Source: Neoconidiobolus thromboides FSU 785 (Eukaryota; Entomophthoromycota; Entomophthoromycetes; Entomophthorales; Neoconidiobolaceae). Taken from it: a DNA stretch of 64,000 nt. The DNA is taken from positions 27,689 to 91,688 of the forward strand of contig MU626337.1 of assembly GCA_025603075.1 (NCBI GenBank), in the 5' to 3' direction. The notes under the pieces are model-generated. The model had not been told where the DNA came from, searched no databases, and saw nothing but the letters and a program-made list of their open reading frames with translations. The translations under genes and the position numbers were made by a program. This document shows, in pieces, positions 9,452-64,000 of the stretch; within the stretch, counting starts at the first letter, position 1; every line of letters starts with the position of its first letter.

Positions 9452-9780
9452 TTTCTAATTGCTATTTGAACAAAAAATTAGTAAAATTCTTAAACAGGAA
9501 TACATTCACATATTACATTTGGGTTAAATTAAATCCATAATTTATCTATTTTTTAATTTTGTTATATTGTAAAAAAGGAATAAATTAACCATAAATACTA
9601 GGAAAATAGTAATAATAAGAAAACAAAAAGTACATCTAACAATAGCATTTATTTGTTAATATTTCACAGCTTTATAAAATTTGATGTAAATAGATTAAAC
9701 GCTGAAAATTTATTGAGATTTGTCGATTTTTTAGAAGTTTGGGTTTAAATTTATAATAAAGATTTAAAATGTGTAAAACT

Positions 9781-9851
9781 GCGTACATAGTATAGAGGTA
9801 GAATACTTCTCTTCCAAAGAAGTGGCCTGGGTTCGATTCCCAGTGTACGCA
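9781..9851 (+). tRNA. tRNA-Gly (UCC)
   Basis: A 71-base cloverleaf with no intron. The acceptor GCGTACA pairs with TGTACGC, followed by discriminator A. The anticodon stem CTTCT/AGAAG closes a loop CTTCCAA, giving anticodon TCC, which reads GGA glycine codons. The T-arm is CTGGG-TTCGATT-CCCAG, with the B-box GGTTCGATTCC intact. A short T-run about 10 bases downstream (from about 9858) would serve as the RNA polymerase III terminator. Confidence 0.93.
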
Positions 9852-11036
9852 AGTACATTTTGTTTTTTACAAAAGCCACATAGTTATATATTGCCTTAAA
9901 CTCAAAGCCAGATAAATAAAAACCAAGTTTTCAATTCAACTGAATGCATTTAATAACTCTCTATTATTCTATACCCTACTCTCCTTCTTATCGAAAGCCT
10001 GTATATTAATGTTTGACTATTTTGTGAATATGAAAGCTTTAAATAAAATCCTGTATAACGTTAACTTCTCTTTAAAGTGTTTGAAGTATTTATATTAATA
10101 TTCATGAAAGTAGATTTTTTCATTACAGTAATTAATTTTTTGAAATAGCATAAATTTTAAAGCTTATCCTCTAAAAACTATAATTTTAATAAGTTACAAG
10201 GTAGAGCCTACTTTTTAGATCGACTTAAAAATAAAAATATTTAGATTTTAAATAAATAAATATAAATAAAAACAATATGTAGACAGAAGATCTACAACAA
10301 GAATTATTAGCATTCAAATAAAGTTATTCTTAAAGTATTGCCCTTTAATTTTAGTTCCAATTTCATATTTTAGCAAAATCATATATGGTTCTAAAAAAGC
10401 AAGTTATCATCATTTATTGTCAGTTTTAATAAAATCCGAAATATAGGATAAGCTATATAAAGAAAATACGAAAATATTTTATAAAGTGATAATTACATAT
10501 GGTATATTAATGTTGAAACTTACCAGTAACATTTTAAATGATCTTATGTCATATGCTCAATTAAAACATCATTTGAATATTGAATAATGAAAATGTCCTT
10601 AATCAAATACTGTAAAATTTGGCTAACTTTTAAAGATTGAAGAAATAGGCAAGCAAATTAGAAACATATAGTGTTTAAAATGATCATGTATACAAAATAA
10701 TAATAACTAGTATAATATATTTATTATAATTTTTTCATGATTGTCTTTACATTTATTACTTTTCAAAGTTTATAAAATATTTACTCAATCTTTATTATTT
10801 GCTAAATTTTATTCAATTCTAGGGAGGTCATATAGTTAAGATCACAATTTTTCCTAACACCAATCAAAATATATTGATACTTGTGACCTAGATTCTAATT
10901 GATCGTAAAATTTACGAATAAGACTTAGAGCAAAATATAACTGACTTGAATGAACCAAAACGTAACAAATTTTCTTCAAAAACTTAATTCAAACTAGTAA
11001 TTATATTAGCATCAAAAGTTATCAGTAGTAGTGACT
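9852..11036. other. Gene-free stretch before the IQ gene
   Basis: It holds the tRNA terminator T-run and the upstream region of the IQ-motif gene. I see no further feature. Confidence 0.45.
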
Positions 11037-21900: not shown

Positions 21901-22336
21901 TAATATTGAGGGATTAGCTACTTTAGATCATTTACCTCAACAAAATTATTCAATCGGCGATAAAATTCAAGGTAGAATATTAGACATTGATAATCAAAAT
22001 AATATGATAGATTTATCTTTTAATACGAAATTTAATAAAGATAAATATCAACCTAAATTTGATTCAAGTAGTAAATCAAATAAAATGGATAAAGAAGTTA
22101 AGGATTTATTAATAGAACAATTAAATAATAATAATAATATATCAGCAATTATTGAATTAGTTAAAGAAGATTATTTAATTGTATCTTTACCACAATATAA
22201 AGATATAATTAGTTATGTTAATATTAAATCATATAATGAGCGTACATCACCTTTTTTAAAATATAAATATTTACAACAAATTAGCTGTAATTTAATTCAA
22301 TTAAATGAAAATAGAAATCAAATATTATTAAAATTA

Positions 22337-22382
<46 letters not shown>

Positions 22383-25003
22383 TCAACAATAACAAAGTCA
22401 ATAATAATATTAAAGGATTAGAAATTGGTAAAGAAGTTACAGGTATTGTTATGAAAGTATTGAAGAATTCACATAGAATAAGAGTTAGTTTACCAGAATT
22501 TAAAACTAATGGATTAATGGATTTCAATCAAATATTTAGTAATTATAATCAAATTGAAGATCCATTAAAGCCCTTTAAAGATTTCCCAATTAATAAACAA
22601 ATTCAATGTAAAATTATTGATCTTTATGAACTAAAAGTAAAAACATCAATTAAAAATAAAAAAAATAAGATCATTGAATTATCTATGTTAAATGAAGATA
22701 ACAATAATAAAAAGAATGAATACTCAATTGGTGATAAAGTATTAGGATTTATTAAAGCAGTTGATAAGAAGGGTATTTTAGTTAAATTAAGAAATAATCG
22801 ATTAGGATTAATTAATTATTTTGATATTTCTAAAGAATATAATATAATCAATAACTATCAACAATTGTTTAAAATAGGTATGCCATTAGAAGTAAAACTA
22901 TTAGAAACAATTAAAGAAGATAAAAAAATTGTTAATTTAACTTTAATTAATTGTAAATTATCAACTATCAAGTATGATATTTATCCAATAGCTTATCAAT
23001 CTTTATCTGAAATTAAAGTGGATAGTTTATTAACTGGGAAAATGAATTTGACAGATGTAAAGAAGAATTTAATGAATGGATTTGCTTTAAAATTTCATAT
23101 TAAAAATAATGAATATTCAGAATTAAAAGATATTAATGTTAAAGTACAAATAGATCAATTACAAGATAATTATAAAGATATTATTAATTTTATTAATGAG
23201 AATTATAATTCCTTTTTAAAGTTAAAAGTATTACAAGTTAATGAAGATACAATATTTGCTTCATTAAGAGAGTCCATTGTTAATAGTAATAATTTTACTG
23301 GAAGTGTTAAAAACCAGTTATTTGAAGCTATTGAAGATGAATTAATTGAAGGCAATGAAGTTACTGGGTTTGTTAAAAAGATTACAGATCGTGGAATTAA
23401 ATTATATTTAAACAACGATACTTTTGCTTTAATTGATAATGAAGATTTGATTAATTCAATTGGTAAAGATTGGAATAAAAAAATTCAACAATGTGATGTT
23501 TTAAATGGAAAAGTTAAATCGTAAGTTTAATTTATTATTATTATTATAATCAAATAACAATATTAATCTCATTACTTATTTAGTATTATTGATGGCAAAA
23601 TCAAACTTAATACTATTACTCCAATCAGTAGTATTATCCCCAAACTTAAAGTCAAAAAACCAATTATTATAGAGAATGGAAGTTTTGTAATTGTCAAAGC
23701 CAAAATATTAAGAGCCCATAAAGGAGCAATTACTATGTTAATATTAAGAAATCGAAAATTGGCTGTTTGTGCTAAAAATGATCATCGATGTGAATTTCCA
23801 AAGAATATTAATAATTTAAAGAAAAATCAAGTTGTAGATGTTGCTTTAATGGATTTTGATGAAAACAAAAATGCTTATTTAGCTTCATTTAATCAATTAA
23901 GTAAAGATGATGAAGACAGTGAGAACGAAAGTGAAGAGGAAGAGGAAGAAGAGATGGAAGACATCAAAGAAAGTAAAGAGAATGAAGATGAAATTGATAT
24001 GGAAGAAGAAGTTATGGAATCATCTGAAGAAATGGAACCATTGGATATTGATGAAGATGTAGAATCTTCAGAAGAAGAAGGGGATATTATGGATATTGAA
24101 GATGAAATGGAGGATAGCGAATCCGAATCTCAACCAAAAAAGAAGAAAGAAAAGAGTCGATATTTATTACCAGAAGATACTACAGCTGATCAAAAAGCAC
24201 CTCAAGTAGCTGATGATTATGAAAAATTAATTTTAGCTTCACCCAATGCCTCTTATCTTTGGATTAATTATATGGCGTATCATCTACAATTAACTAATTT
24301 AGAAAAAGCAAGACAAGTTGGACAAAGAGCATTACAAACAATTAGCTTAAAAGAAGAAAATGAACGATTTAATGTTCATGTTGCTTTAATTAAACTAGAA
24401 TATAAATTTGGAACCAAGGAAACATTAGAAAAGCAATTTCAAATATCTAAAGTATCAGTTAATCAACCTAAACATTTGTATTTACAATTAGCTAATACTT
24501 ATAAAGAAGATAAAAACGACCGAGAAGTAGAAAAAGTATATTTACAAATGCAAAAACGATTTGCACAAAGTCAAAAGATTTGGTTGACTCAAGTGGAATA
24601 TTATCTAACTAAAAAACAAAACGAGCAAGCACAAAAAATATTATCTCAATCATTAAAATCATTACCAAAAAGAAAACATATTAAAATCATTTTCAAAGCT
24701 GCTCAATTGCATTATAAATATACGAATTTTGAAACAGCAAGAACTTTATTTGAGGGGATTTTAGCCAATTATCAAAATAAATTGGATATTTGGGCCGTTT
24801 ATATCGATATGGAAGTTAAGTATAGTAAAGATTTAGATTATGTTCGAGGTATTTTTAATAGAGTATTAAAGCTCAATTGGTCATCTAAGAAAGTTAAGTT
24901 TTTGTTTAAAAAGTATTTGGCTATTGAAAATCAAAATGGAGATGTTCAAAAGATTCAACATGTTAAACAATTAGCGGCGGATTATGTCAATTCATTGAAT
25001 TAA
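18979..25003 (+). CDS. RRP5: rRNA biogenesis protein Rrp5
   Basis: Four exons (18979-19083, 19142-19273, 19334-23520, 23584-25003), all phase-consistent, encode 1947 residues. Yeast Rrp5 is 1729 and human PDCD11 1871, so this is full length. Rrp5 acts in the nucleolus on both small- and large-subunit rRNA precursors. The body from about residue 85 is a series of S1 RNA-binding domains, recognisable as repeated G-x-V-x-x-I...G-x-V..L-x-G-x-x-P..L units. Acidic stretches interrupt it at about 390-445 and 1590-1665. The last 270 residues carry HAT/TPR-type helical repeats (YEKLILASPNASYLWINYM is the typical entry), which bind the snoRNP machinery in yeast. An Asn run at about 1078-1095 comes from an AAT microsatellite. 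Confidence 0.95.
22331..22380 (+). repeat. (AAT)n microsatellite coding poly-Asn
   Basis: A trinucleotide run inside RRP5 gives a tract of about 15 Asn between S1 domains. It keeps frame whatever its length, so it may be polymorphic. Confidence 0.9.
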
Positions 25004-36680: not shown

Positions 36681-37391
36681 ATGAAGTTAAATAATTTCTT
36701 CTTATTTTTATTTACCACTGTAGCATTAGCTGGCGTTATTAATCAAGACACTGTTGATAATGAGAATGGGATTGATTTTGCTGATGATGCGTTAATAGAG
36801 CTTAATTCGAATGTGGATTATGGTAAATCGACTGTTGATGTAAAAGACGAAGCAGACGATAAAGCAGTCGCAATATTAGATATATTGAAGCCTGGTATAC
36901 TAGGACCCTTATTATTAGAAGGCAAAAACTTTGATTATGAAAAAATTGGTCTTAGCAAGAAAAACTATTTTATAATGAAAAATGTATTATTGCCTAGATT
37001 AAAGAGTAAAGTAATTAAAGAGGTTAAGAATGAATTGAAGAAAATACGTAAAGGAAAGTCCAGTGCAGAGATCAAGAAGAATTATCGAGATAATATTGAT
37101 CTTATTGCTGGCTCAAACTTGAAGGAGCTTGAGGACAAGACTTTGAAGGATCTAGTTAAGAGGTTCGGGAACAACAAAGAGTACCTTAGTGATATTCCTA
37201 TCCTTATTATTTACCTCAAGGATTTATTTGAAGGTGAAGTGCTTAAGGTAGTCGATGAATTTTTCACTGAATGTAACCAATACAGACCTGATGTAGCTAT
37301 AGTATTGAAAAAGACCATCGATAAAATCCAGAGTAACTTTAGAATTTTCCCTAAGGATTACTACAAATCATTAAAAAATGCTTATCATTGA
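36681..37391 (+). CDS. Hypothetical secreted protein
   Basis: A single-exon frame of 236 residues. Residues 1-17 form a clear signal peptide (short Lys-containing start, Phe/Leu core, cleavage likely after ALAG or nearby). The rest is charged and probably all-helical, with a Lys-rich segment (KVIKEVKNELKKIRKGK, about 113-129) and a single Cys near 205. There is no membrane anchor, no dibasic Kex2 site near the start, and no family that I recognise. It does not share the Gly/Asn tail of the secreted family at 50-64 kb. Confidence 0.65.
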   Translation: MKLNNFFLFLFTTVALAGVINQDTVDNENGIDFADDALIELNSNVDYGKSTVDVKDEADDKAVAILDILKPGILGPLLLEGKNFDYEKIGLSKKNYFIMKNVLLPRLKSKVIKEVKNELKKIRKGKSSAEIKKNYRDNIDLIAGSNLKELEDKTLKDLVKRFGNNKEYLSDIPILIIYLKDLFEGEVLKVVDEFFTECNQYRPDVAIVLKKTIDKIQSNFRIFPKDYYKSLKNAYH

Positions 37392-50512: not shown

Positions 50513-50548
50513 AGATAAATTAATACTAGTAATATACTCATATAAAAG
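50513..50548 (+). promoter_or_regulatory. GATA-type box and TATA, family gene A
   Basis: AGATAAAT at 50513-50520 lies 28 bp (start to start) before TATAAAAG at 50541-50548, which in turn begins 41 bp before the ATG. Confidence 0.65.
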
Positions 50549-50581: not shown

Positions 50582-50974
50582 ATGAACAAATTTTTATTAA
50601 ATACCGTTGTTTTAGCTTTTATCGTTACCGTTTCTTCGCTTCCAGCATCAAGTGGTAATTACTTAGCCAAACGTGGCTTTAATTCTTTCTCTCCTTGCTA
50701 TGGATATGGCAGCGGTTTCAATAATTTCTATCCTGGCTATGGACTTGGTGGTTTTAATGGATATGGAGGATATGGAGGATTTAATAATTTTGGCTCGTTT
50801 GGCTTCCCAGGTGTAATTAATAATAATGCTTTCAATGCTAATGCTAATAACTTTAATGCACACGAGTTTGATCGTAATAAGGAGGCAGCTGTATTTGTTG
50901 ATAATGTACACAAAAACGATGTAAATGCCAACCATTTCAATGTTAATAAGCAAAATAATGCTGCTATCATCTGA
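50582..50974 (+). CDS. Small secreted Gly/Asn-rich protein A
   Basis: A 130-residue intron-free protein. Residues 1-19 form a signal peptide, and a Kex2-type site LAKR ends at residue 31. Residues 32-80 are rich in Gly, Tyr, Phe and Asn (YPGYGLGGFNGYGGYGG, then NNFGSFGFPGVINNN). The tail has two related blocks of alternating Asn with small or aromatic residues (NANANNFN and NANHFNVN), each followed by a Lys-containing segment ending in a hydrophobic run (KEAAVF and NNAAII). The C-terminus AAII is kept in the family. Cleavage at KR would release a mature polypeptide of about 99 residues into the secretory path. A wall, coat or amyloid-like structural role, or a peptide precursor, is inferred from composition. 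Its 3' flank is nearly identical to that of gene B. Confidence 0.8.
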   Translation: MNKFLLNTVVLAFIVTVSSLPASSGNYLAKRGFNSFSPCYGYGSGFNNFYPGYGLGGFNGYGGYGGFNNFGSFGFPGVINNNAFNANANNFNAHEFDRNKEAAVFVDNVHKNDVNANHFNVNKQNNAAII

Positions 50975-51143
50975 GTTTGTTGTAAAACTTAAAAAATAAA
51001 CATTTAAACTTTAAAATCATTTCTATTACGTTTTTTGAATATTAGTGATTTTTAATATGAAATTCGTAAGTTCAAACATTATTATATACACTCTTAGTTT
51101 ACATAAAAAACAGAGTTCTTTAGGTTCAAAAAAGAAATATATA

Positions 51144-51233
51144 TATGTTTTTTTTGGCTTTACTTTTTCTATCTTTTAAGTGCTATTTGAGTAGAAAGAT
51201 GGAAAAAACAGAGCCAAAAGAACACCCTCATAT
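51144..51233. mobile_element. Hairpin MITE, copy 16 (fold-back chimera)
   Basis: The left half is a reverse arm (TTTTTTTTGGCTTTACTTTT, then AAGTGCTATTTGAGTAGAAA). The right half is the forward version of the same arm (GATGGAAAAAACAGAGCC and AACACCCTCATA). The opposite terminal arm of the standard element is absent. Confidence 0.7.
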
Positions 51234-51335
51234 CTAATTCTATTCAGTAGATCAAAACCCTCCTACTATTTTACCATCGCCTCATCTGATCAGTATTATA
51301 AACAATTTCCAGGTTGACTCCAACTTGAAGTAGTC

Positions 51336-51512
51336 TTATTGTTTCTTCACTATCTCATCTACTTGATCTATCGAATCTTTATCAATTAAGGGATGTTTTG
51401 AATTTTTTACGTCAATAAAAGTATAATATAATAAAGCATCATTCTTTAATATCTTATGCTTTGAAGCTTTATTAGTATCAGCATTCGGTAGACACTTGTT
51501 ATATTTAACTAT
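51336..51512 (-). pseudogene. Coding relic, 58 codons
   Basis: A minus-strand frame, open from 51512 and ending in TAA at 51338-51336, reads with balanced protein-like composition (NKCLPNADTNKASKHK, then YYTFIDVKNSKHPLIDKD, ending EIVKKQ). It has no ATG and is closed upstream by a stop. The DNA is richer in G+C than its flanks. It could be a terminal exon or the remnant of a gene broken by the nearby repeats; the family is not recognised. Confidence 0.35.
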
Positions 51513-51555
51513 TTAATGATAGAAATTCAGTAATTTTACGACTTTGTTTAGTATT

Positions 51556-51655
51556 TAAGGATGTTTTCCTTGATTTTATCACTTTTTCCATTTTTCGAGT
51601 GTTGTTTGAATGGAAAGATTTAGTAAAATTTTTAAACAAAAAAATATATCCTCAT
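51556..51655 (-). mobile_element. Hairpin MITE, copy 17
   Basis: Reverse orientation, diverged: AAGGATGTTTTCCTTGATTT at the left, core CGAGTGTTGTTTGAATGG and ATCCTCATTT at the right. Confidence 0.7.
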
Positions 51656-51878
51656 TTTAACTCTTTATCAAATAACTAATACAACCATATAACACAAATT
51701 ACGATAAATTAAATTAGATACTGAATTTCATGATAGCTTGGCATTTAATGTCAAGTATTTGATATATTTAACACAATGAAAGTGAATAAAACAATACCAT
51801 TAAAAGTATCTAAATTGAAAGTTTAGTCGTTTTAATTAATGAGTTATTAATCAAGTTTGAAATTTCTTCTATCAATGT

Positions 51879-51913
51879 AGATAAATTAAGTTGATAATAT
51901 ACTCATATAAAAA
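51879..51913 (+). promoter_or_regulatory. GATA-type box and TATA, family gene B
   Basis: AGATAAAT starts 27 bp before TATAAAAA, which starts 41 bp before the ATG at 51947. Confidence 0.65.
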
Positions 51914-51946
51914 GAATGGGACAAATATTCAAAATAGCATCGAAAA

Positions 51947-52294
51947 ATGAACCAAATTTTATTAAATACCATTATTTTAGCTTTTGTTGCTACCATCTCT
52001 TCCGTTCCAGCATCAAGTGATAGTCGCTTATCCAGAAGAAGCTTCAACTCTTTTTATCCAGGTTATGGACTTGGTGGGTTTAATGGAGGGTATGGTGGAT
52101 TCAATAACTTTGGTTCTTTTGGATTTCCGGCTGTTATTAATAACAATGCTTTCAATGCTAATGCCAATCATTTCAATGCTAACGAATTTGACCGTAATAA
52201 AAAGGCAGCTGTATTTGTTGATAATGTACACAAAAATGATGTAAATGCCAACCATTTCAATGTTAATAAGCAAAACAATGCTGCTATCATCTGA
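51947..52294 (+). CDS. Small secreted Gly/Asn-rich protein B
   Basis: 115 residues, the closest relative of protein A, differing mainly by a shorter Gly/Tyr block. Signal peptide 1-19, dibasic RR at 30-31 in the context LSRRSF. The tail from VFVDNVHKNDVNANHFN to the C-terminal AAII is the same as in A. At least 35 bp after the stop codon are identical to the flank of gene A, including the AATAAA signal, which points to a recent tandem duplication. Confidence 0.8.
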   Translation: MNQILLNTIILAFVATISSVPASSDSRLSRRSFNSFYPGYGLGGFNGGYGGFNNFGSFGFPAVINNNAFNANANHFNANEFDRNKKAAVFVDNVHKNDVNANHFNVNKQNNAAII

Positions 52295-53962
52295 GTTTGT
52301 TGTAAAACTTAAAAAATAAACATTTAGACTTTAAGATCATTCTTATTATATCTCTCTTAAATATTGATAAGCTTCAAACTAAAATTTATAAATTTGAATG
52401 TTGACGCATTGAACAATTTTGGTGGGTTTATCAAGATCATATTTTCACTATCCCATACAAAAACTCAAATTAGTTAGTTAAGTAACCAGTTTGTTATTCA
52501 ACTTACAACTAAAGTTAATGGACATTTTAAAATTGTCTCAGAAAAGTAAATCAACAATTGTAGGAAAATAATGTTATCAAATTTGACTAGATTTACATTA
52601 AGCTTTATAAGTAAAAGGTACTTTTTAATTGATGAATTCTAGTAAAGAATTAGCACTAAAAATTTTATGCGTGTTTTTATGTTAGAATGAATACCTAATA
52701 ATAGTATAAAAAACTTTAAATTTTTATAACTTATAAAACATTAGCAAATATACAATGCAAAAATTATTACAAGAATCCTCTAATTAAGATAGAAAAGATC
52801 TTTTGATACAATAAAATAATCTAATGTCTATTTTTTATAGATTAAAAAGATAAAAAAAATTTTTTACGATTTAATTTATAAAATAAAAATTAGCCAATTG
52901 AAACTTTTATAATCTATTTGTATGAAAAATAAATTCTATACAACTAGACTCTATAAACTAGTTTTGTTTAAATATGATAAAAAGAAAGTAAATATTTTTC
53001 AAGCATCAATTTAGTGCAAAAATTTTCGCTGATTAATGTTGATAAATTTTAAGCATCTGTTTTCAAATCTTTGTAGCTGCAAATTAAACAATTAAATACA
53101 GTTATTTAATTGGCTAATTTACTTTACAGTGAACTTAGTAAAAAGATACTATGATTTTAGTAATTTCTATTTTTAATTTATCTATAAAAAGCAAATTAGT
53201 TTAAACTAAAAACTGAAGCAATACTTTAAAAAAGTATCAAAAAATCGCACGTCTATCAGATTTTAATATAACCTTATCTAAGAGTCTTTCTATACAGCCT
53301 TGGATTTAACTGCTAACTAATATAATCTAGTTATTTTGTCACTATTGTAACTACTCTATATAGCGATTCCATTTCTGTCAATAGACCTTTCGCATTTTAA
53401 AGTCAATAAAGTATCAATATGTAAAGATTCTCATAAATAATCTTATTTTTTAATGAAGAATCAGTTTTGAGAGTATACAATTGCAATGCTTGCATATTTT
53501 ACAAAATAATCTTTTTCTTACTTATAGAAACATTAGTTCTTGTAATCAATAATGTTTTATTTTTATTAATAAAAAAAACTAGGTTTTTTCATGAAAAGCC
53601 CTTGCAGTAAGGCCAATTTGTTATTAACTTATACTTTAGAGCTATGGTAGTACAAAGTGTTTGATATCCACTTACTATGCTTATTTATTTAATGACAAGA
53701 GTTTGGAAATTTTAGTAGTTATGTTTAACATTTTGACTCTTTATCACTTCACTAATATTATAGATTAATGGTTTGAGATAAATTAGATTATTTGATTTTA
53801 TGATGAGACTTGGCATTTACTCATAAATACGCTTAGCACATATACTATGATGGAAATAAACAAAGAATTTTATAATAGGCGTATAAATTGGTACTTTACC
53901 TATTTTAAATAAAAAACAATCTCTATTTACTCATCAAATTTATAACTTTAGTTTATCAATAT
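52295..53962. other. Gene-free A+T-rich region
   Basis: No hairpin element, gene or RNA feature is visible. Confidence 0.45.
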
Positions 53963-53998
53963 AGATAAATCAATATCGGTATTTTAGGCATATAAAAA
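53963..53998 (+). promoter_or_regulatory. GATA-type box and TATA, family gene C
   Basis: AGATAAAT starts 28 bp before TATAAAAA, which starts 41 bp before the ATG at 54032. Confidence 0.65.
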
Positions 53999-54031
53999 GA
54001 GGAAAATAAATCTTTAAAACATTATCAAAAA

Positions 54032-54445
54032 ATGAATAACTTCTTATTAAACACCATCCTTTTAGCCTTTACTGCTACTATTGCTTCACTTCCACCATCA
54101 GATGATGTTCATTTATCCAGAAGAGGTTTCGGCTCCTATCCAGGCTATGGGTTAAATGGTGGTTATAGTGGTTTAAACGCTGGCTCTAGTAATTTCTATC
54201 CTGGCTATGGACTTGGCGGGTTTGGTGGTGGATATGGCGGATATGGTGGGTTCAATAATTTTGGTTCTTTTGGTTTTCCAACTGTGATTACCAATGATGC
54301 TTTTAATGCTAATGCTAATAATTTCAATTTAAATGAGTTTGATAGTAACAAACAAGCAGCTGTGTTTACCGACAATGTTCATAGTAACAATGTAAATAGC
54401 AATAATGCTAATGTTAGTAAGCAGAATAGTGCTGCTATTATTTAA
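54032..54445 (+). CDS. Small secreted Gly/Asn-rich protein C
   Basis: 137 residues, the largest Gly/Tyr block of the plus-strand members. PGYGL occurs twice (following GSYPGYGLNGGYSG and NFYPGYGLGG), suggesting internal duplication of the first mature module. Signal peptide 1-19 and LSRR ending at residue 31. The tail keeps NANANNFN and AAII, but its Lys/His spacing differs from A and B (VFTDNVHSNNVNSNN), so this is an older paralogue. Confidence 0.8.
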   Translation: MNNFLLNTILLAFTATIASLPPSDDVHLSRRGFGSYPGYGLNGGYSGLNAGSSNFYPGYGLGGFGGGYGGYGGFNNFGSFGFPTVITNDAFNANANNFNLNEFDSNKQAAVFTDNVHSNNVNSNNANVSKQNSAAII

Positions 54446-55088
54446 AAATGGTACAAATTGTTCTAGAATAAATACTCTACAGTTTGAACTTGCTTTCATT
54501 TGTTTTACTTCTATAAAAATTTAAATATTTTTGTATCTATATATGATTTTTTTCTAAATTAATAAAGCTATTTGATTTCTAAAATTTAGCTAAAGAAACT
54601 GTATTTTGTTATTTGCCATTTCAAATCCAATGACATTACAATTCTCTATAAAGTTATTAATATGTTCTATCTTCTGTTTTTTTTGGTATTTGATGCCCTA
54701 TATCAGCTATTTTAAAAATTCGAATTACAAACTGATACCAGTTACTGCTTCAATCATGATCTTTATCACTTGATTCCTGTATATTTGACAACAGGGAAGA
54801 TTAAACTTGAAGTTCTATTTAGATTTGGTATAGCTTCAACGCTATTGTTTACCCTTACAAAAGATTTATTGGAATAGTTCTAATACTAACATTACATATC
54901 GATATCAATATAATCTAAGTTTGTCATTTGGTTTCTTATTAATTTATCAAATTAAAACACTATTTTATTAGCTATCTTTTTTTACATTCATCTTTACTAA
55001 TAGATTAAATATCAATAACCATTTATCAACTTTGAATCATCATATAAAATCGTAAAAGATTAATTAATAAGTAGTAAAAAACTACTCA
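54446..55088. other. Intergenic
   Basis: Nothing seen besides a degenerate AGATTAAT at 55057, which replaces the GATA-type box for the next family member. Confidence 0.4.
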
Positions 55089-55095
55089 TATAAAG
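55089..55095 (+). promoter_or_regulatory. TATA box, family gene D
   Basis: TATAAAG begins 43 bp before the ATG at 55132, with the family's TCA just upstream. Confidence 0.5.
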
Positions 55096-55131
55096 CCAAC
55101 TAAATACTTTCTTAATGAAATATTCCCCTAA

Positions 55132-55560
55132 ATGTATAAATACATATCAACCATTCTTATTTTAACTTCCTCCACTATTATTTTATCTCATTCAACATTA
55201 CCTAAAACTTGCTTATTTAAACAAGTATTTACCACTTTTCCATCTGTTTTTGATATCGATGAATTTTCAAACATCCAATACAACAATCGACCTCATTCTA
55301 CTCCACCTATTTTCAATTTAAATAATAATTTTGGATGGGCTGGAACTAACACGGTTAAGACTTCTCCATCGAATTTCAATTCATGTAGCCTTCCATCTAT
55401 ATTTGATGACAGCTGTTTAAATGCTAATATAACTACTTTTCGCAAATATGAAAGTAACAAAAACAAAAAAGCAACTATATAAACTGATAATATTCATAAG
55501 AAAAATGCAGATAAGGAGAGTGATAATAATATTAAATTTGATGTTGCTATTATTATTTAA
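55132..55560 (+). pseudogene. Diverged family member D with in-frame stop
   Basis: The frame from ATG 55132 gives 116 residues to TAA 55480-55482. In the same frame the next 25 codons to TAA 55558-55560 still carry the family tail (TDNIHKK and a final VAIII, compare VDNVHKK and AAII). The stop replaces a residue of the conserved AAVFVDN segment. A hydrophobic signal peptide is present (residues 1-20), but the dibasic site at 30-31 and the Gly/Tyr block are lost. It is most simply a decaying paralogue. Stop-codon readthrough or a sequencing error is possible. Confidence 0.65.
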
Positions 55561-55875
55561 GTTTAATAGTTGAATTATATTTTAAAATAAAATAGGTTTT
55601 TAGAGACTTAATATTTGAGAGCTATTATACTTAACTTTTTATAAAATTAAATAATTTATACAAATTCATATAATCAACTTGTTGCTCTTTCTATTATAAC
55701 AAAAGTTATTATTTAAACTAAGATAAAATAAAAAATAGTCGTGAATTATTGAAACAAAACACAATTAAAAATTTAAAACTATCATTATTATTTCATTATA
55801 TAAAAGTATAAAAACCTTCGGAAAGCACTCTTAATAGTTTTCAAAATAAATAACGAAAAACCTATAAATTAATTT

Positions 55876-56617
55876 CTATTGATTGTTAGTAGAGTCCATA
55901 CCAGGTGGAGAAGGTGGGGCTTTTTGTATATGATTTAATAGCTGAAAACCTTTTTTAAACACCGGTTTAATTAAATTAACTTCAAACCTAGTCAAATTAT
56001 CCATTTGTAAATGAGAATCATTAATGGCTTCAATACCCTTTCTAATTTTACTTTGTCTTTGTTCTTGTATTTCTTTTAATAAATTTCGAATAATATTACT
56101 TTCTTTGATATCATCAGAAGCTCTGAAAATAAAATGATAAACCCAAACTAAAAAAATTATTAATGTTTGACTTACTTATCCAATAACATCTTTGATATTT
56201 CCATAAAATTCTCATTCATTTTGCTAAATGTAGGCTCTTCTCTTTCTTCAGCTAGCCTCTTTTTTAAACTTTCTAAATGTAAAGTTTATTTTTAATCCTC
56301 TTTTAATAATAAAATATTAGCTCTTACCAATCGATAACCATTCTGGGGGTACAATTGAGCACTTATTCTTACTCTTTAAAACTAAAGCTAATCCTAATGG
56401 TACTTTACTCCTAAACGGTGGTTTAAATGGGCCTATAGCACCCTTATTAAATTTAACTTAAAGCTCGATTTAATCCTATTATAAATCACCGACTTACCGA
56501 AGATAATTGTAATCGATCCATTTTGAATTTTGGTCTTATTTCTATCATCTTTATCTCACTTAGGTATTCCAATTCATCGAATTCTAATTCTCCTCGTTGT
56601 CGTTTTTGTAATGCCAT
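55876..56617 (-). CDS. PSF2: GINS complex subunit Psf2
   Basis: Four exons (56617-56498, 56442-56328, 56272-56176, 56122-55876) encode 192 residues; human PSF2 is 185 and yeast 213. GINS joins Cdc45 and Mcm2-7 as the replicative CMG helicase in the nucleus. The order [54 protein letters not shown] and YMEISKMLL-type (here [16 protein letters not shown]) segments follows the family closely. The acceptor AAG at 56443 was chosen because the next upstream one would leave the frame broken. A short Pro-rich tail closes the protein. Confidence 0.87.
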
Positions 56618-57163
56618 TTCAAAAATTGAATTTTGTTTATTTTTTTTCAAATTGAGTCGTTTTTAATATCAGTCGCATTCACCAATAAACAGTTAGTAAG
56701 TAAATTAGCAAATAATAGTTATAGATTTTTGATTTAACTGGAAAGAATTCCATTCTAACATCTAATCCAATAAAACTACCCCATTATTAAATTTAGGTTC
56801 TTTGCTTAATAATATGATTTTAAAATATCAAAATATATAATAAACAAAAACGAGCGAGATATGAAATATGATGAAAAAGCAATAAAATTGAAAGCTGAAT
56901 AAACAAAAAACAATGATTCAATTAGCTTCATTTATTAGTGTAAAATTTCTTATTAAACAAAAATAAACAGTTCATCCCCTTCAACAACATTTCCAAATAT
57001 TTTCAACTTATGGGGGGTTCTATCGCATTGTCCGTTATCCAGACTGAAGCACCTAATTAATTATTAATATTTAAACATTTAATTAATAGATTTAAAATAC
57101 CAAAAATGAGCAGGACATTTAATCTAGAAATTATAAAACATTAAAAACAGAGGTTTTTAGTTA
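56618..57163. other. Intergenic upstream of PSF2
   Basis: No feature seen apart from presumed promoter sequence. Confidence 0.4.
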
Positions 57164-57486
57164 TCATAGAAATCTTACTGCAGTACCAAACTTAACCCCA
57201 AATTCTTCAATATCAATAAGTTTGCTTTTATATAACGGATATCCTTGGTGGGGACAAAACTAAATATTGCACTTTAATCTTCATTGATTTGTTTATTTGA
57301 GAAGTAAAATAATAATTCTCTATTACTTACCGCTTCCATTACTTTATAATCGTCATCTTGTTTAACTATCAATAACTTTAATATTCTATTATCTAGTCGT
57401 AATTCTGCTTTTTTATAAATTAATTTATTGCTATTTTGTTGAAAATTTTCAATTGTTGTTAAATAATATTTGGTCAATTCACTCAT
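57164..57486 (-). CDS. Small unknown protein, two exons
   Basis: Exon 57486-57331 ends at a consensus donor GTAAGT. Joined to 57259-57164 after TTTAG it gives 83 residues ending GVKFGTAVRFL. If the 71-nt intron is retained, the frame stops after 70 residues at 57274. The spliced form is preferred because of the strong donor and the protein-like second exon (FCPHQGYPLYKSKLID). Strand-like Lys/Leu/Ile segments (ELRLDNRILKLLIVKQDD) suggest a small beta-barrel such as an OB- or SRP-type fold, but I do not recognise the family. Confidence 0.5.
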
Positions 57487-57843
57487 TATTCTTTTTAATA
57501 AAAAATAGATTTTTAATTTGCATTGTCATTCTTTTAATTTTTAATTTCTAAATCCTATTTCCTTTTTAAAACTTAAATTTAATTATGACAAAAAAATTAG
57601 CAAAAAATGATCAAGTTTCTATAAAAGAAATCCCAACTTTAATTAAATAAAAAACAGGTGCTAATAAGAGGATAGAAGTTATAAAAGAAGAAATAGAGAG
57701 TCAAAAATAAATATTGGGGATAGGATAAATAAATACACATATTAAAGAATTAAAAAGAACACTTAAATAAGGTTTAAAAAAGGTTGGTACTTTTTCAACA
57801 TACTACACATCATCTATAAGAGTTGGAATCACTTAAATCAAGC
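57487..57843. other. Intergenic, 357 bp
   Basis: A Lys-rich plus-strand frame near 57.58-57.77 kb has several stops and no start; I do not call it. Confidence 0.4.
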
Positions 57844-59130
57844 CTATGGTTTGGTTTCAGATACATTATTACTTAAATTATTATTTGACATTAGATTCCA
57901 AATGGGTGGCAAAGAAAACTTTTGAGAGCGTCGATGATGAGATCTTAAAGTAACGTTGGATAAGATGGATTTTGATAATTGAGTTTCATTTCCAGTATTA
58001 TTGTTTGTTTCGTTAGCACCATTGTTTTCAGTATTGTTGTTACTTTCTCTCCTCCTCCTAGAGTTTAATAAACTTGAATGTAAATCTAACCAAGCATGAC
58101 TAATAGTATCGCCACCTTTACCAAATACAGAGGAGACTTTATTTAGTAATTGACGTTGTACTTTACTCTCCGTTTTAATTTGATTGGGGGTACCTTGTGC
58201 TGTTGAAGAGCTAAACTCGGAATCTGGACTACTATCTTTTAAAGTAGAACTAGGTGATGGACATTTAGTACTATTTTTACTATTTTTATCCTCTTTTAAA
58301 CTAGCCATGGAATGACGTAAAGATAAACTTGGATTAACTACTGTTTTTGAAGAACCCATTGAACTATTTGATAAACTGGATCTTAAAGATGGGGTTGATC
58401 TTCTACTTGATACTACAGATTTAGGGATCTGTTTGACTGATTTTTGTAAACCAACCTCTTGTTGAGGAAGATTATTACTAAAATTATAAAGTAATTTAAT
58501 ACCATTTTCTGGGAATACTTCCACCCACAAAACTTTACGTAAATGATTTCGATTTGGGGTTTGAGATAAAGAGCGGGTTAATTTACCATCCATAAATTCA
58601 ACAAATTCGCTCCAATGTTGTTTAGATACATATAATTGAAACCCTAAGAAAAATAATAATTCAACTTCCATCTTATTGATTTCTTCTACTTTAAAGAGTC
58701 CTTGACTAACTTGTGCCCAACTACGATTATGATAACAGTTATCATAAAGATATTTATAAGCTATAATTAAGGCGGCTAATAATAATCTATGAGGTGAGCT
58801 ATTGGTGCCTTTACAAGCTGGATGTTTTTGTTTTAATCTAATCAAATAGATCAAAGCTAAAAACAAAGTAGTGATAGAAGAATTGGTTCTTCTAATAACT
58901 CTATAAATGAATTCGTTTAAAGGCGGTAAACCACTCTTTTCAATCTGTTCAGGCTCACAGCCAAATAAATGATTGACAAATCTTTCTGCTAATGCAATAG
59001 CTACTAGTCGTAATTGTTTACGATCTTCATCACTTGTTATTATCTTTTCATCTAAATGGGCTGGGATGATTAATTCTAAAGCATTTGTGCTTGGCCTTGG
59101 GTTATTGTTACTATTTGATATTGATAGCAT
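57844..59130 (-). CDS. Pho80/PCL-type cyclin
   Basis: A single-exon frame of 428 residues. The cyclin box covers about 37-165: ALAERFVNHLFG, the PPLNEFIYRVIRRT helix, TTLFLALIYLIRL, HRLLLAALIIAYKYLYD, and NKMEVELLFFLGFQLYVS, the pattern of Pcl1/Pcl2-like cyclins that activate Pho85-type kinases. The C-terminal half is Ser/Asn-rich and probably disordered, as in many fungal members, with several SP/TP sites. It likely links cell cycle, polarity or nutrient signals to a CDK5-like kinase; the exact partner cannot be read from the sequence. Confidence 0.8.
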   Translation of the reverse strand: MLSISNSNNNPRPSTNALELIIPAHLDEKIITSDEDRKQLRLVAIALAERFVNHLFGCEPEQIEKSGLPPLNEFIYRVIRRTNSSITTLFLALIYLIRLKQKHPACKGTNSSPHRLLLAALIIAYKYLYDNCYHNRSWAQVSQGLFKVEEINKMEVELLFFLGFQLYVSKQHWSEFVEFMDGKLTRSLSQTPNRNHLRKVLWVEVFPENGIKLLYNFSNNLPQQEVGLQKSVKQIPKSVVSSRRSTPSLRSSLSNSSMGSSKTVVNPSLSLRHSMASLKEDKNSKNSTKCPSPSSTLKDSSPDSEFSSSTAQGTPNQIKTESKVQRQLLNKVSSVFGKGGDTISHAWLDLHSSLLNSRRRRESNNNTENNGANETNNNTGNETQLSKSILSNVTLRSHHRRSQKFSLPPIWNLMSNNNLSNNVSETKP

Positions 59131-61922
59131 TCTTTCTTATATTGTATTATATTATTAAAAACACAAATTGTTGTAAATAATAAAAAGAGAAATGATAGAT
59201 TTGAAAATCAATTCGATGATTGTATTATATATAAAGCTTATATTCGATTTAAGGGGTCAAAATACTAATTTTAAATCAGAGTCATAAAACTAAAACTGGG
59301 GAAATAAGAATATACTGATAAAATAATAAGTAAGATTTAATTGAATATACTCTACTATCTAATCAAGTTTATATAACTAAAAAAATACGATCAAAGTTTA
59401 AAAAGAATAAAAAAATTTATTTTTCTATATTCACTTTTTTTATACTTAAATAAACATCTAACTTTTAGGTTAAAAATTACTAATTTCTGGTCGATTTCAA
59501 ACTCTCATTCTTGAAATTGAAACTTGAAATTTATATCCAAATCATCTAATTTGTATACTTTTATGCCTTTTGAAACTGACTTTTGATACTCAAATGCCTT
59601 AATCAGCTCTTGAAACTATGTAGCCATTTATCTATTTTTAGTAAATCTTATCAATCATAGCCAATCAAACCTCCAAAAGATACTTTTAGTTGATCTAAAA
59701 GTATCTGACTTCATTGGCTTAAAAGTATTTTTATTAACTAGAATTTATGCACTTTAAACTCAAAGTTACTTCAAATTTTCAATAACAAATAAAAGAGATC
59801 AATTAAGGTTAACTCTTTGATCTAATTGATAAAAATCAACTCATTGAAAGATCTACCACTTATCAGGCTGCCTCAGTTTAAATTTGAGTTCAAATTCTCT
59901 TGCAATTTAATTACTATTTAATCTATCTTAATCGCTTTTCTTTAAAAATCTACTTTCTTTTTTTAGTTATTTGTAACCACTAGCTTATCCATTTTTTGCC
60001 CGCTTTTTAATGGCTTATTCAAATTCAAATTGGATTTTAAAGATTTTCTTTTGACAACAACTATTACGACATGACTTGAAAAAAGGCTTATTAATTAAAA
60101 TTAAAATTGGAACACTGGATCATCTTTTCTCCATAGTTTTTTGGCCGAATCCCTGAATTAGTACTAATTTTTACAACACTCTATTGTTTGTCTTAACTAG
60201 TTTTAATTCATTAGCATAGTAAATTGGACTTTGTTTCATTATCATATCGCTATTCTTGACTAATCAAAAATTACATCATCCTTACTCTAAATTGAAATCT
60301 GGGTAAATATAACGTTAACTAAAACTTCATAATGACTGTACTCTTTTTGATAGCTCATCATTTGTTCATTTTATTCAATTTATGGCTATTATGAGTTAAC
60401 TAACTGTTTATTTGAGAGTAAGTATTTGACTAAAATTAATATCAATTTAATAATTAGGCTTTAAAAAAAGATTTCAACCAATTGTTTAATTATAAAAATT
60501 GCCACTAAATAAGTCAGTTTATTTGAATTAATTTAATATTAGTTATTGTTATTATTTATTTTAAATGCAAATTGGGCATTTTGGTTCTGTTTTAGTGAAT
60601 CCTGATTATTGCAAAATATCAGTTTTTATAGCTAGAAAATATAAAATTAAAAATGCCCAATCTACACTTAAAACATAAATGATGTTACGTAGAATTCATT
60701 TTGTTTTATTATTTTGTATTACTTTTAACTCAGTTTTAAAATTCATTTAGTAGTTTTATCTACTGCCATTTTGTTTAAATCCATTTTTAATATTTGAATT
60801 AACTAACATATTAAATGCCTAAACAAAGCTTTATCTTTAAGGACTTATATACTATTACTATTGAACATTTCGAAAATTCGATACACAATATTCCTTCTAT
60901 TACAAATACTTACAACACTATTATAACTTAAAAAAAGAATTTGGATCAAATATAGTTCAATGTGATTTATTAAAAAGATAAATGAAACTAAAAACTTATT
61001 TTTTAACTTCACTTACTAAAATGAAAATCTTAACCCCTTATAATATTCTAGTTCAAGTTTTAGGCTTAAGATTGAACCCTGTTTTGAAGAGCAAAAGATT
61101 CAGTAGTTAAAAAAAGTAATTTTCTGACCATGGTATTCAAATGTTGCACTTTAATTCAAGTTATGGATGTAAAAATAGGAGCTTAAGATTAAACAGGAGA
61201 CTGAATTTTCGGTTGATACATATTCGAGCCTTTTTTTAAATTGTTTTGGGATAGTGTCAGTGCTAGATTATTTCATGATAACTTAGAAGATAAATAATCT
61301 GATTAATTACATTTAATATGAAAGTTGTGACTGCTTTTCACTTGAATTTTAAAGATTAATTAAAATAATATTAGAAATTTCTCATTTTATTTTAATTTAA
61401 TATAAGAATATTAAGTAAAAAAATTATTTATAAATAACTGAGTTTATAAGCAGGATATTTTTTAACATGGATAATAATAAATTTAATTAAATTTTATATT
61501 ACAAGTAGTTGAAAAGTTTATCATGATTTTAAACTTGATTTCTCAGTTAGAATTCAATTATGTTTACAAAATTTCTATGACAATGTCCAAATCATGAAAA
61601 GCAGTGATGGAGTTATTTGCAATTAGATCTTTTATTGCTTTTGATTTCTAGTTATTTTTTTCTAGTATGAATTCAAGAATTCCAACTTTTCAATATTTTA
61701 AATTCACATAAAGAAATATTAATTACAAATTAAAAGCAAGCGATGATATGCAAAGCTATAAGTGGTTTTAATTGAATTTATTAATCAATTTCAAATTTTG
61801 CATTCAAATAAAATCGGAAAATAAAGGAGTTTCAAATTAAACAAACATATATTTTATTCAAAAAAAAAGAAAAATCTATTAAATTGTGAATGTGTTTATT
61901 CTTATACTAAACCTCAGTAAGG
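59131..61922. other. Gene-free region, 2.8 kb
   Basis: I looked for exons in both strands and saw none. The sequence near 59.4-60.4 kb is richer in C than typical spacer and may include a long leader or regulatory region for the cyclin gene. Confidence 0.4.
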
Positions 61923-62387
61923 CTAAATAATAGCAACACTGTTATGTTTATTAACATTATTATTACTCTTATTGATATCTTTCTTATGAATATTATCAAC
62001 GAATACAGCTGCTTTTTTATTGCGATCAAACTGATGAGCATTGAAACTGTTAGCATTAACATTGAAACGATCATTATTGATAACATTTGGGAAACCAAAG
62101 GAGTTAAAGTTATTGAATCCTCCATATCCATTATTATAGCCCAAACCGGGAGAGTAATAATTGAAACTACGTCTAAACAAATTTGTATTTGTAGATAATG
62201 AACTATCTAATATATTTGGAAAACTTAAGGTGTTTAAAGTATTTAAACCATTATTACTATCATATTTATATTCAGTAGAATAGAAATTAAAATAGCGTTT
62301 AGATAATTGTTGTTGGTTAGAGGTTGGGATGGAAGTGATAGTAGAAACTAAAGATAAAAAGATAATACTTGGTTTGAATTTAGTCAT
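61923..62387 (-). CDS. Small secreted Gly/Asn-rich protein E
   Basis: 154 residues, the longest family member. Signal peptide 1-19 and LSKR ending at 31. Uniquely it has a second dibasic site, RR at 72-73, followed by SFNYYSPGLGYNNGYGG, which repeats the module after the first site (YFNFYS). Processing at both would yield two peptides. The tail matches the family (NVNANSFN, VFVDNIHKKDIN, final VAII). It lies on the opposite strand from A-D. Confidence 0.8.
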   Translation of the reverse strand: MTKFKPSIIFLSLVSTITSIPTSNQQQLSKRYFNFYSTEYKYDSNNGLNTLNTLSFPNILDSSLSTNTNLFRRSFNYYSPGLGYNNGYGGFNNFNSFGFPNVINNDRFNVNANSFNAHQFDRNKKAAVFVDNIHKKDINKSNNNVNKHNSVAII

Positions 62388-62420
62388 TTTTTAATAACTA
62401 TTCCAAGTCATTGATTCAGG

Positions 62421-62456
62421 GTTTTTATATTTACTAGTTACTAATATTATTTATCT
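62421..62456 (-). promoter_or_regulatory. GATA-type box and TATA, family gene E
   Basis: On the minus strand AGATAAAT begins at 62456, 27 bp before TATAAAAAC at 62429, which begins 42 bp before the ATG. Confidence 0.65.
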
Positions 62457-62604
62457 TTTTTGATAAAATAAAAGTTAAATTGATAAATAGAGTTAATTAT
62501 TAATTATAATAAAGATAATTAATGTAGTCTTAAAGTATTATTATTTGCTATTATATTTATCAAATTAAAGGTAATTTTATTTAATTATTATTTAATAAAT
62601 ACTA

Positions 62605-62708
62605 AATGGGAATGTATTTTTGTATTTAAGAATTTTACTAACAAATTTTCTGCTCAAATAGCGCTTAAAAGATGGAAAAAGTAATGAAGCCAAAAAATCA
62701 TCCCCAAA
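62605..62708 (+). mobile_element. Hairpin MITE, copy 18
   Basis: Nearly complete: ATGGGAATGTATTTTTG, AAATAGCGCTTAAAAGATGG and ATCATCCCCAAA. It lies between two minus-strand family genes. Confidence 0.8.
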
Positions 62709-63303
62709 TGTTGTTATAAGATTTAGTAAAGAATCTACTTTATCACCAAGTACTTTGAGTTATGACATACTAAATTAATTCTATCTATTGTCAGAAGATT
62801 GAGAAAGTTTTAAACGTTTAGTAAAAAACAAAATTAATAATATAGCGTTAGTTATATTTAAATACTTTTTTTATAGTAATAAACAGATTCTTTATAATTT
62901 TAAATAATGTGAGTTTGATTTTAAATAGCCTTGTAAAGTTGCATAAATAAACTCATTAATCACCATTTTCTGAGTGTTTTATACTCAATATAATAAAATT
63001 TGAAAACTTTTGGATTTTTATTAATTTTTATTGAAATAAATTTAATTTATAAATACTTTTCTAATATATAGTAGCTTTTAAATTTACTAGGTAAGATGAT
63101 AAAACTATTAGTTTTTTTTAGATAAAGCTAACTAGCAAGTCTTTATAAGATACTAGTCTTTCCCTTATTTCCCTATTAAAAAGAACTTGTTTTAAAATCA
63201 AAAAATTGATGCCTTTTATAGTAAAGTTAAAAAGTTTCAATCTAAATACATGACGTGAAGCATCAAAAGCATGAAAGATTTAATATTCTAAATTTATAAA
63301 CTT
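62709..63303. other. Intergenic
   Basis: A+T-rich; no feature seen before the simple repeat. Confidence 0.4.
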
Positions 63304-63384
63304 AAAATAAAAATAAAATAAAAATAAAAATAAAAATAAAGATAAAAATAAAAATAAAAATAAAGATAAAAATAAAAATAAAAA
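63304..63384. repeat. (AAAAAT)n simple repeat
   Basis: About 81 bp of AAAAAT/AAAAT units with occasional AAAGAT variants, downstream of family gene F. Confidence 0.9.
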
Positions 63385-63429
63385 GGGTATTAGTTTCTAA
63401 ATCTTTTGTTCTAATAAATATGAGCTATA

Positions 63430-63768
63430 TTAAATAATGGCAACATTATCATGCTTATTAACATTAATATGCTTCTTATTGATATCCTTCTTGTGAACAT
63501 TATCAACGAATACAGCTGCTTTTTTATTACGATCAAATTCGTTCAAATTAAAGTTATGATTATTAGCGTGGAATCTGTTATTATTAATTACAGCTGGGAA
63601 ACCAAAAGAGCCAAAGTTATTGAATCCGCCATTAAACCCACCAACCCCATAGCCAGGATAGAAATTGTTAAAAGTACGTCTGGTTAAGTAACTATCACTA
63701 GAAGTTGGAAGAGAACAGATAGTAGAGGTGAAAGCTAAGATAATGGCGTTTAATAAGAATTGATTCAT
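63430..63768 (-). CDS. Small secreted Gly/Asn-rich protein F
   Basis: 112 residues with the shortest Gly block. Signal peptide 1-19, LTRR ending at 31, then NNFYPGYGVGGFNGGFNN and GFPAVINNN. The tail has VFVDNVHKKDINKK and ends NVAII. It is closer to B in its N-terminal half and to E in its Lys-rich tail. Confidence 0.8.
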   Translation of the reverse strand: MNQFLLNAIILAFTSTICSLPTSSDSYLTRRTFNNFYPGYGVGGFNGGFNNFGSFGFPAVINNNRFHANNHNFNLNEFDRNKKAAVFVDNVHKKDINKKHINVNKHDNVAII

Positions 63769-63802: not shown

Positions 63803-63810
63803 CTTATATA
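63803..63810 (-). promoter_or_regulatory. TATA box, family gene F
   Basis: TATATAAG on the minus strand starts 42 bp before the ATG. The GATA-type box is not at the usual spacing; the nearest TGATAAAT lies 58 bp upstream of the TATA. Confidence 0.55.
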
Positions 63811-64000
63811 CTTTTGTATCTTTCTTTTATTATGTATAGTATTATTTTTACTTAACGTTAATTTATCATTATTTATTTATACTAAATAAAACTATAATTA
63901 GTTCAAAATAATACTACATTTATCTGACTAATGATTGTTAGTTGATAATATTGTATAATCTATGCTTTATTAATTGAATTTATAAGATACATTAATAGTA
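63811..64000. other. Right edge, no gene seen
   Basis: Upstream region of gene F; A+T-rich with a TGATAAAT motif at 63868. Confidence 0.4.

Follow-up and report, generated by a model that had tools for sequence, protein, structure and literature searches.

A putative family of Kex2-matured secreted Gly/Asn-rich proteins in Neoconidiobolus thromboides and Coemansia

A group of short, similar reading frames between positions 50582 and 63768 of a 64,000-nucleotide stretch of DNA from Neoconidiobolus thromboides FSU 785 (Entomophthorales) raises the question of what their small Gly- and Asn-rich products are and how they are made. The stretch as a whole, called the window here, corresponds to positions 27689-91688 of contig C80 in an assembly of 23.1 Mb and 392 contigs. 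An earlier note, based on the letters of the window, had described a six-member family of small secreted proteins with a fixed Kex2-type site and common control, and had considered a coat, a glue or a peptide-precursor system. The analysis directly yielded the genes, selection on their coding sequences, a conserved cleavage signature, distant relatives and a shared GATA-TATA layout; cleavage, assembly, location and purpose of the proteins are what we infer from these. The genes look like members of an undescribed protein family among the Kex2-matured secreted proteins, and the family appears to be real and old.

Family genes in N. thromboides

Five intact open reading frames (ORFs) without introns and one broken gene were read in the interval (Table 1), and the five intact genes were found as uninterrupted frames where they had been described. 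When codons were checked, all five carried Pro-21, Leu-28 and a KR or RR pair at residues 30-31, and their tails ended in AAII or VAII. The broken gene is related, and in-frame tail-like residues continue to VAIII beyond its stop codon; the six-member layout does not hold throughout, however, since the Pro of the broken gene is residue 24 from the ATG instead of 21. Likewise, the site at 30-31 is fixed in the intact genes, but the gene at 61923-62387 has an additional pair at residues 72-73. The sequence, together with an AlphaFold helix of low confidence over residues 3-17, makes a signal peptide of 19 residues plausible. In the family proteins, the block between site and tail consists of 44% Gly, 12% Tyr and 10% Phe, and the tail contains 25.5% Asn. 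At their 3′ ends the genes at 50582 and 51947 are nearly identical, and this extends to the first bases past the stop codon (window 50900-52330).

The genes of the window are related as had been claimed, but they represent one branch only. A whole-genome protein search gave 15 matches, located on contigs C80, C8, C115 and C82, and a search with a C115 query gave 16. The genome contains at least 10 intact family genes, five in the window, two on C8 and three on C115. The C8 relatives encode 112 and 185 residues, the longer one with two sites, and proteins of the C80/C8 group have almost no Cys. The C115 relatives encode 146, 156 and 172 residues, and their proteins have 3, 4 or 5 RR sites; each RR ends a QSGIHRR unit, and the units are followed by a Gly block and an Asn-rich tail like those of the window proteins. 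Altogether, 15 units were counted over C115 and C82 in 10 DNA forms, yet 14 of them read AQSGIHRR and one PQSGIHRR, indicating that the peptide itself is conserved. One C82 gene is cut by the contig end, and another has a similar start without the tail. The frame at L029:3149-3436 encodes a C115-type leader, two AQSGIHRR units and a Cys-Gly-His run followed by a stop, with no Asn-rich tail. Relics of family genes lie at position 55132 of the window, some 5 kb ahead of the window start on C80 (L024, ~4100-4410, with a stop within the tail) and on C82. The two C8 genes (L025:6480-7037 and 7991-8329) differ by one synonymous change in 61 tail codons, while their first 31 codons are strongly diverged; this combination suggests gene conversion or a composite duplication. 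An ORF on C8 is identical to protein P0002 (K502DRAFT_346087 of N. thromboides FSU 785). Protein P0005 is identical to the C115 ORF at L028:7222; the contig recorded for P0005 has 66,981 bases, compared with 63,303 for C115.

The coding sequence is under purifying selection, which is strongest in the tail, whereas leader and pro-piece drift. In the 21 pairs of the seven C80/C8 genes, the ratio of non-synonymous to synonymous substitution rates (dN/dS) was 0.11-0.37 over the whole coding sequence, 0.00-0.27 in the tail and 0.16-1.21 in residues 1-31, the pairs not being independent and some dS values lying near saturation. The ratio of residues 1-31 was above that of the tail in 19 of the 21 pairs; in the other two, the values agreed to two decimals. 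Three C115 pairs gave ratios of 0.14-0.23. Selection therefore preserves the mature part most, as expected if the tail is functional and the leader is discarded.

Relatives in Coemansia and the cleavage site

A single-sequence protein search returned three matches at E≤1 among 45 candidates, all of them from N. thromboides. With an alignment as query, 9 of 7994 scored candidates reached E≤10, and two of these were new proteins from Coemansia (E 1.1e-7 and a weak 0.2); P0009 (E 4.7) was dropped, as by eye it matched through a Gly run and looked unrelated. When the stretch preceding the tail was masked, 41 of 96 candidates reached E≤10, four from N. thromboides and 37 from Coemansia. The profile search beyond the genome, which had been proposed in the earlier note as a check, thus led to 37 Coemansia proteins with the same layout. 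All are named hypothetical, and examination of their full sequences revealed a leader, a short pro-piece, an Arg site of the form aliphatic-x-(K/R)-R, a Gly/Tyr/Phe block, F-P, an Asn-rich tail and, where present, a hydrophobic C-end. P0035 has I-P in place of F-P ahead of the tail, and P0022, P0031 and P0037, which are partial or mis-started models, have no visible signal peptide.

For the homology test each tail was scored against its own shuffles, which controls for composition; P0038 and P0042, which are cut short, were left out of this profile and of the autocorrelation and repeat tests. A profile of the remaining 35 Coemansia tails recognized all ten N. thromboides tails at p≤0.05, nine of them at p≤0.01, and in the reverse direction the N. 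thromboides profile recognized 27 of the 35 Coemansia tails at p≤0.05. The three C115 tails and the seven C80/C8 tails matched each other in 10 of 10 cases at p≤0.01; used by itself, the C115 profile brought just 12 of 35 Coemansia tails to p≤0.05. A bias-corrected Coemansia tail profile, run against 2928 frames and reversed decoys, placed one N. thromboides member first at a marginal E of 0.0084 and reached no other. The Coemansia query P0007 recovered the family (best E 3.5e-9), and P0037 gave a single match at 0.18. Homology between the N. thromboides and Coemansia proteins is likely, as judged by the layout and the shuffle test.

The cleavage site was investigated in 47 family proteins, ten from N. 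thromboides and 37 from Coemansia (P0006, the tail-less C82 gene and the relics were excluded), whose relatedness means that the following counts are not independent events. The boundary was set at the (K/R)R nearest to the tail on its N-terminal side; five proteins lack such a pair, and an Arg picked by eye was used for them. Because the boundary was defined on Arg, the presence of Arg at P1 in 47/47 is by construction. A (K/R)R pair after residue 19 was present in 42 of the 47 proteins, compared with a mean of 5.1 and a maximum of 12 in shuffles, with three N-terminally short models counted whole. Position P4 was Leu, Ile, Val, Met or Phe in 43/47, whereas the same residue class was found at P3 in 11/47 and at P5 in 2/47. 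The five proteins without a pair have a single Arg preceded at P4 by Met (3), Leu (1) or Ile (1). Not one (K/R)R pair occurred in 2419 tail residues, although these include 87 Lys/Arg. One or two sites were found in each of the seven C80/C8 genes and 3-5 in the C115 genes, and none of the 37 Coemansia proteins had more than one pair. According to PMC8528282, Kex2 prefers Arg at P1, Lys or Arg at P2 and Leu or another aliphatic residue at P4, with LxxR as an expanded motif. The boundary signature agrees with this preference and was therefore counted for Kex2 maturation. With the dibasic pair and the aliphatic P4 kept before the Gly block in a distant genus, and with kexin-type P-domain matches in the genome, the maturation proposed earlier is strongly supported, and we consider it highly probable that Kex2 processes the family precursors.

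Upstream elements and features of the locus

The common control proposed for the family is supported by a shared layout, in which GATAAAT lies upstream of a TATA box. GATAAAT in either orientation was present in the 200-base upstreams of all ten N. thromboides genes (24 copies); it was found in 1 of 17 other ORFs, which were hand-picked from the window and the fetched regions and could include some inner exons. On average, 0.12 copies were present per 200-base chunk of the window. Dinucleotide shuffles of the ten upstreams gave a mean total of 1.6 and a maximum of 6. As the motif was chosen after the upstreams had been viewed, the count is post hoc and supportive rather than a planned test, and the upstreams of the C80/C8 group are in part of common descent. 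One GATAAAT copy starts at -65 to -68 and the TATA box at -40 to -42 in five of these seven genes. For the gene at 63430 and the C8 gene for 112 residues, the nearest GATAAAT is at -99 and -111 and the TATA box at -42 and -41, respectively. The C115 genes, three in number, have a GATAAAT starting at -107 to -116 and TATA at -87 to -93; otherwise, C115 and C80/C8 upstreams show little or no similarity (z between -0.9 and 3.3, exceeding 2 for 2 of 21 pairs). The GATA-TATA pair was not enriched genome-wide (993 matches compared with 1175 for a reversed-pattern control) and was therefore rejected as a finder of co-regulated genes.

Table 1. Family genes, sites and upstream elements (window positions unless a region label is given; minus-strand genes are named by both ends)
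Feature	Position	Strand	Remarks
Intact family gene 50582	50582..50974	+	130 residues, no intron; own-genome match 1.2e-80
KR, codons 30-31, of 50582	50669..50674	+	LAKR, Kex2-type site; codons checked
Gly-Phe-Pro and Asn-rich tail of 50582	50801..50971	+	ends in AAII
GATAAAT of 50582	50514..50520	+	at -68; TATAAA 50541-50546
Intact family gene 51947	51947..52294	+	115 residues
RR, codons 30-31, of 51947	52034..52039	+	LSRR
Gly-Phe-Pro and Asn-rich tail of 51947	52121..52291	+	ends in AAII
GATAAAT of 51947	51880..51886	+	at -67; TATAAA 51906-51911
Intact family gene 54032	54032..54445	+	137 residues
RR, codons 30-31, of 54032	54119..54124	+	LSRR
Gly-Phe-Pro and Asn-rich tail of 54032	54272..54442	+	ends in AAII
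GATAAAT of 54032	53964..53970	+	at -68; TATAAA 53991-53996
Broken family gene 55132	55132..55561	+	TAA 55480-55482 closes the frame; no KR/RR pair
Intact two-site family gene 61923-62387	61923..62387	-	154 residues
KR, codons 30-31, of 61923-62387	62295..62300	-	LSKR
RR, codons 72-73, of 61923-62387	62169..62174	-	LFRR, second dibasic pair
Gly-Phe-Pro and Asn-rich tail of 61923-62387	61926..62096	-	ends in VAII
GATAAAT of 61923-62387	62449..62455	-	at -68; TATAAA 62424-62429
Intact family gene 63430-63768	63430..63768	-	112 residues
RR, codons 30-31, of 63430-63768	63676..63681	-	LTRR
Gly-Phe-Pro and Asn-rich tail of 63430-63768	63433..63603	-	ends in VAII
GATAAAT of 63430-63768	63861..63867	-	at -99; second copy 63918-63924; TATATAAG at 63803-63810
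C115/C82 relatives with tandem QSGIHRR units	L027:4615-5133; L028:5612-6082; L028:7222-7662; L029:3149-3436		15 units including the C82 edge gene

The cluster is flanked by ordinary genes, i.e. HSP20 (2228-2800), tRNA-Gly (9780-9852), an RRP5-like gene (19355-23524) and a cyclin (57844-59130). Two further putative secreted proteins are encoded in the window: a Ser/Tyr/Pro repeat protein with units of the type YTSSYSAPA and a run of N mid-way (14633-16258), and a protein of 236 residues without a Pfam match (36681-37391).

Proposed function, alternatives and known systems

The layout suggests how such precursors might work. A signal peptide would bring the precursor into the secretory pathway, and Kex2 would cut past the aliphatic-x-(K/R)-R motif, removing a short, fast-changing pro-piece. 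The mature protein freed in this way would consist of a flexible N-terminal block rich in Gly/Tyr/Phe(/Trp/Cys) and the conserved Asn-rich tail with its hydrophobic C-end. Many mature copies may then associate outside the cell and, in the manner of the Ustilago repellents, cover hyphae or spores with a coat or adhesive; the pro-piece may prevent premature assembly of a sticky protein. From the C115 branch, copies of a short AQSGIH-type peptide would be released in addition. A precedent is given by the repellents, Kex2-cut peptides forming amyloid-like surface fibrils (PMC8528282), and for conidia of the Entomophthorales a coating of mucinous fluid has been described that helps them to adhere (PMC9026835). 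Our best guess, at about even confidence, is that the genes encode precursors of small structural proteins which are secreted and form a surface coat or adhesive.

Several results weigh against this reading. AlphaFold runs with two alignments of 41 rows, rooted on a window protein or on a Coemansia protein, gave pLDDT (predicted local distance difference test) values of 43.6 and 45.9 and no usable fold, so that structure prediction, another check proposed in the earlier note, did not bear the coat reading out; the failure fits disorder or assembly and proves neither. The alternating pattern from which stacked beta strands had been argued was not confirmed either, as strict beta alternation was not above chance: the hydrophobic moment at 180 degrees was 0.714 vs 0.869 in shuffles for seven N. 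thromboides tails and 0.780 vs 0.783 for 35 Coemansia tails. At 160 degrees both groups were above shuffles (1.07 vs 0.98, standard deviation 0.05, in N. thromboides; 0.975 vs 0.873, standard deviation 0.03, in Coemansia), and at 100 degrees Coemansia was above (0.971 vs 0.866) and N. thromboides was not (0.76 vs 0.966). Given these mixed moments, no clear secondary structure emerges. Both groups showed elevated Asn spacing at lags 2, 5 and 7, the rows being related and significance not being claimed. Two imperfect tail repeats described earlier stood above shuffles in genes 51947 and 54032, but an internal tail repeat reached p≤0.05 in only 7 of 45 proteins. A coat or glue thus stays plausible, whereas the stacked-beta or amyloid argument obtained no clear support from AlphaFold, the alternation test or the repeat test. 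Furthermore, the C115 branch resembles a peptide precursor as much as a coat protein, and relatives were found in only two lineages, fewer than might be expected of a general role at the surface; the searches rely on shared 5-residue words, which bears on the narrow spread seen. The kexin search, finally, covered only the P-domain (PF01483) and gave two matches over cut-off, a full-length one on C335 and a partial one, interrupted by a stop, on C54.

Searches against known families gave little. In Pfam, nothing below E 0.036 was obtained with 9 members; with 41 members, matches at E≤0.01 were to keratin-associated matrix (5), DUF5320 (2), Gly-rich protein (2), chorion (2), keratin head (2) and lamprin (1, at 1.2e-11), and P0035 bears the lamprin Pfam number. 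Membership in these families was rejected, the matches being driven by the low-complexity composition of the Gly block. As weak matches to Gly-rich extracellular and structural proteins they sit well with a structural role. A sequence search of the PDB gave at best an unconvincing E of 0.015, to a DnaJ over profile positions 43-74. Pfam gave no match to a hydrophobin, either with 9 members (up to E 10) or with 41 (up to E 0.01); a hydrophobin search of the genome also gave no match, but as its control gave none, absence from the genome is not claimed.

Instead of a structural protein, Kex2 might free short signal or pheromone peptides from precursors like the Kex2-processed repeat proteins (KEPs), with the Gly/Asn part as a carrier. 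The case for this is strongest in the C115 branch, where several RR sites end units with a conserved peptide and where cutting would give 4, 5 and 6 fragments, in line with the rule of at least four fragments in the KEP survey (PMC6339444). The window genes would give only two or three, however; neither the C80/C8 genes nor the Coemansia proteins have the required number of sites, and in nearly all pairs compared it is the tail, not residues 1-31, that is under the stronger constraint, so that for the family as a whole we regard signal peptides as unlikely. An antimicrobial or defence peptide, whose Gly/Tyr/Phe-rich product would kill or inhibit competitors, would agree with small, secreted, multigene products of Gly-aromatic composition and with a possible resemblance to nematode Gly/Tyr-rich peptides. 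The tails are, however, poor in basic residues, and the strong constraint on an Asn-rich tail is unexpected for membrane-active peptides; this explanation is improbable.

Still less probable are host-directed effectors used on insects or other hosts, as relatives abound in Coemansia, a largely saprotrophic genus, and dN/dS is low. What speaks for them is the birth and death of copies, as seen from the relics in the window, C80 and C82, together with the frequency of Kex2-cut pro-domains in fungal effectors, about 30% of 120 (PMC8528282). Chance low-complexity frames or non-functional repeats would be consistent with a biased composition, which inflates database matches, and with the single member reached by the bias-corrected profile. 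They are hardly credible in view of the low dN/dS of the C80/C8 genes and the ten tails recognized by the composition-controlled Coemansia profile.

Among known systems, the repellents of Ustilago maydis (Rep1) are similar in being secreted, Kex2-cut precursors with a proposed surface role (PMC8528282). Rep1 gives several short peptides, in contrast to the family, whose members mostly carry a single site and one conserved mature part, and to the window genes with their one or two pairs; the likeness is one of description, and fibrils of the family are hypothetical. KEPs share the signal peptide and KR/RR sites, and C115 members have repeat units in addition. The C80/C8 and Coemansia members, unlike KEPs, have too few sites; the conserved part of the family is a C-terminal domain, and the KEP survey left the C-terminal part out of its analysis (PMC6339444). 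Effectors with a Kex2-processed pro-domain (K2PP) likewise have a short pro-piece at the N-terminus, which a KR/RR or LxxR site closes (PMC8528282), but they are grouped by processing among effectors of plant pathogens and do not form one homologous family, and an effector role of the present family is hypothetical. Gly-rich structural proteins (lamprin, chorion, keratin-associated and plant Gly-rich proteins) share the Gly/Tyr-rich block and weak Pfam matches; these involve 1 to 5 of 41 members and track composition, the comparison covering the Pfam match. Hydrophobins, too, are small secreted proteins proposed for surfaces, but no family member matched them and the C80/C8 proteins are nearly Cys-free.

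The earlier statement that no family with this layout had been described is in line with the low-complexity Pfam matches, the PDB search and the literature searched. No match was obtained in literature searches for Coemansia, Kex2 and secreted, for the string FPFASSF or for cysteine-rich secreted proteins of Kickxellomycotina, and a search for Zoopagomycota, Kex2 and repeat returned the KEP surveys alone. The main texts of these surveys do not mention Conidiobolus, nor does that of the first mention Coemansia; their supplements might list the C115 genes. Among the matches listed for small secreted or Gly-rich proteins of Entomophthorales, no such family was named. To our knowledge, no hydrophobins have been described for Entomophthoromycotina or Kickxellomycotina. 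The first hydrophobins outside Dikarya were reported only in 2018, from Caulochytrium and Mortierella (PMC6784888), and in a review of Entomophthora, sticky hydrophobins figure only as a simple hypothesis (PMC8588673).

A tentative and rather doubtful extension of the coat or adhesive reading is that the family is an old one of Entomophthoromycotina and Kickxellomycotina, in which removal of the pro-piece by Kex2 would switch on self-assembly and in which precursors of the AQSGIH branch would yield both a coat protein and a signal. Early-branching fungi make aerial spores and sticky conidia, and the family in Neoconidiobolus and Coemansia is a concrete candidate for surface and adhesion functions. 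In addition, one family would span the range from pro-proteins with one site to peptide precursors with many.

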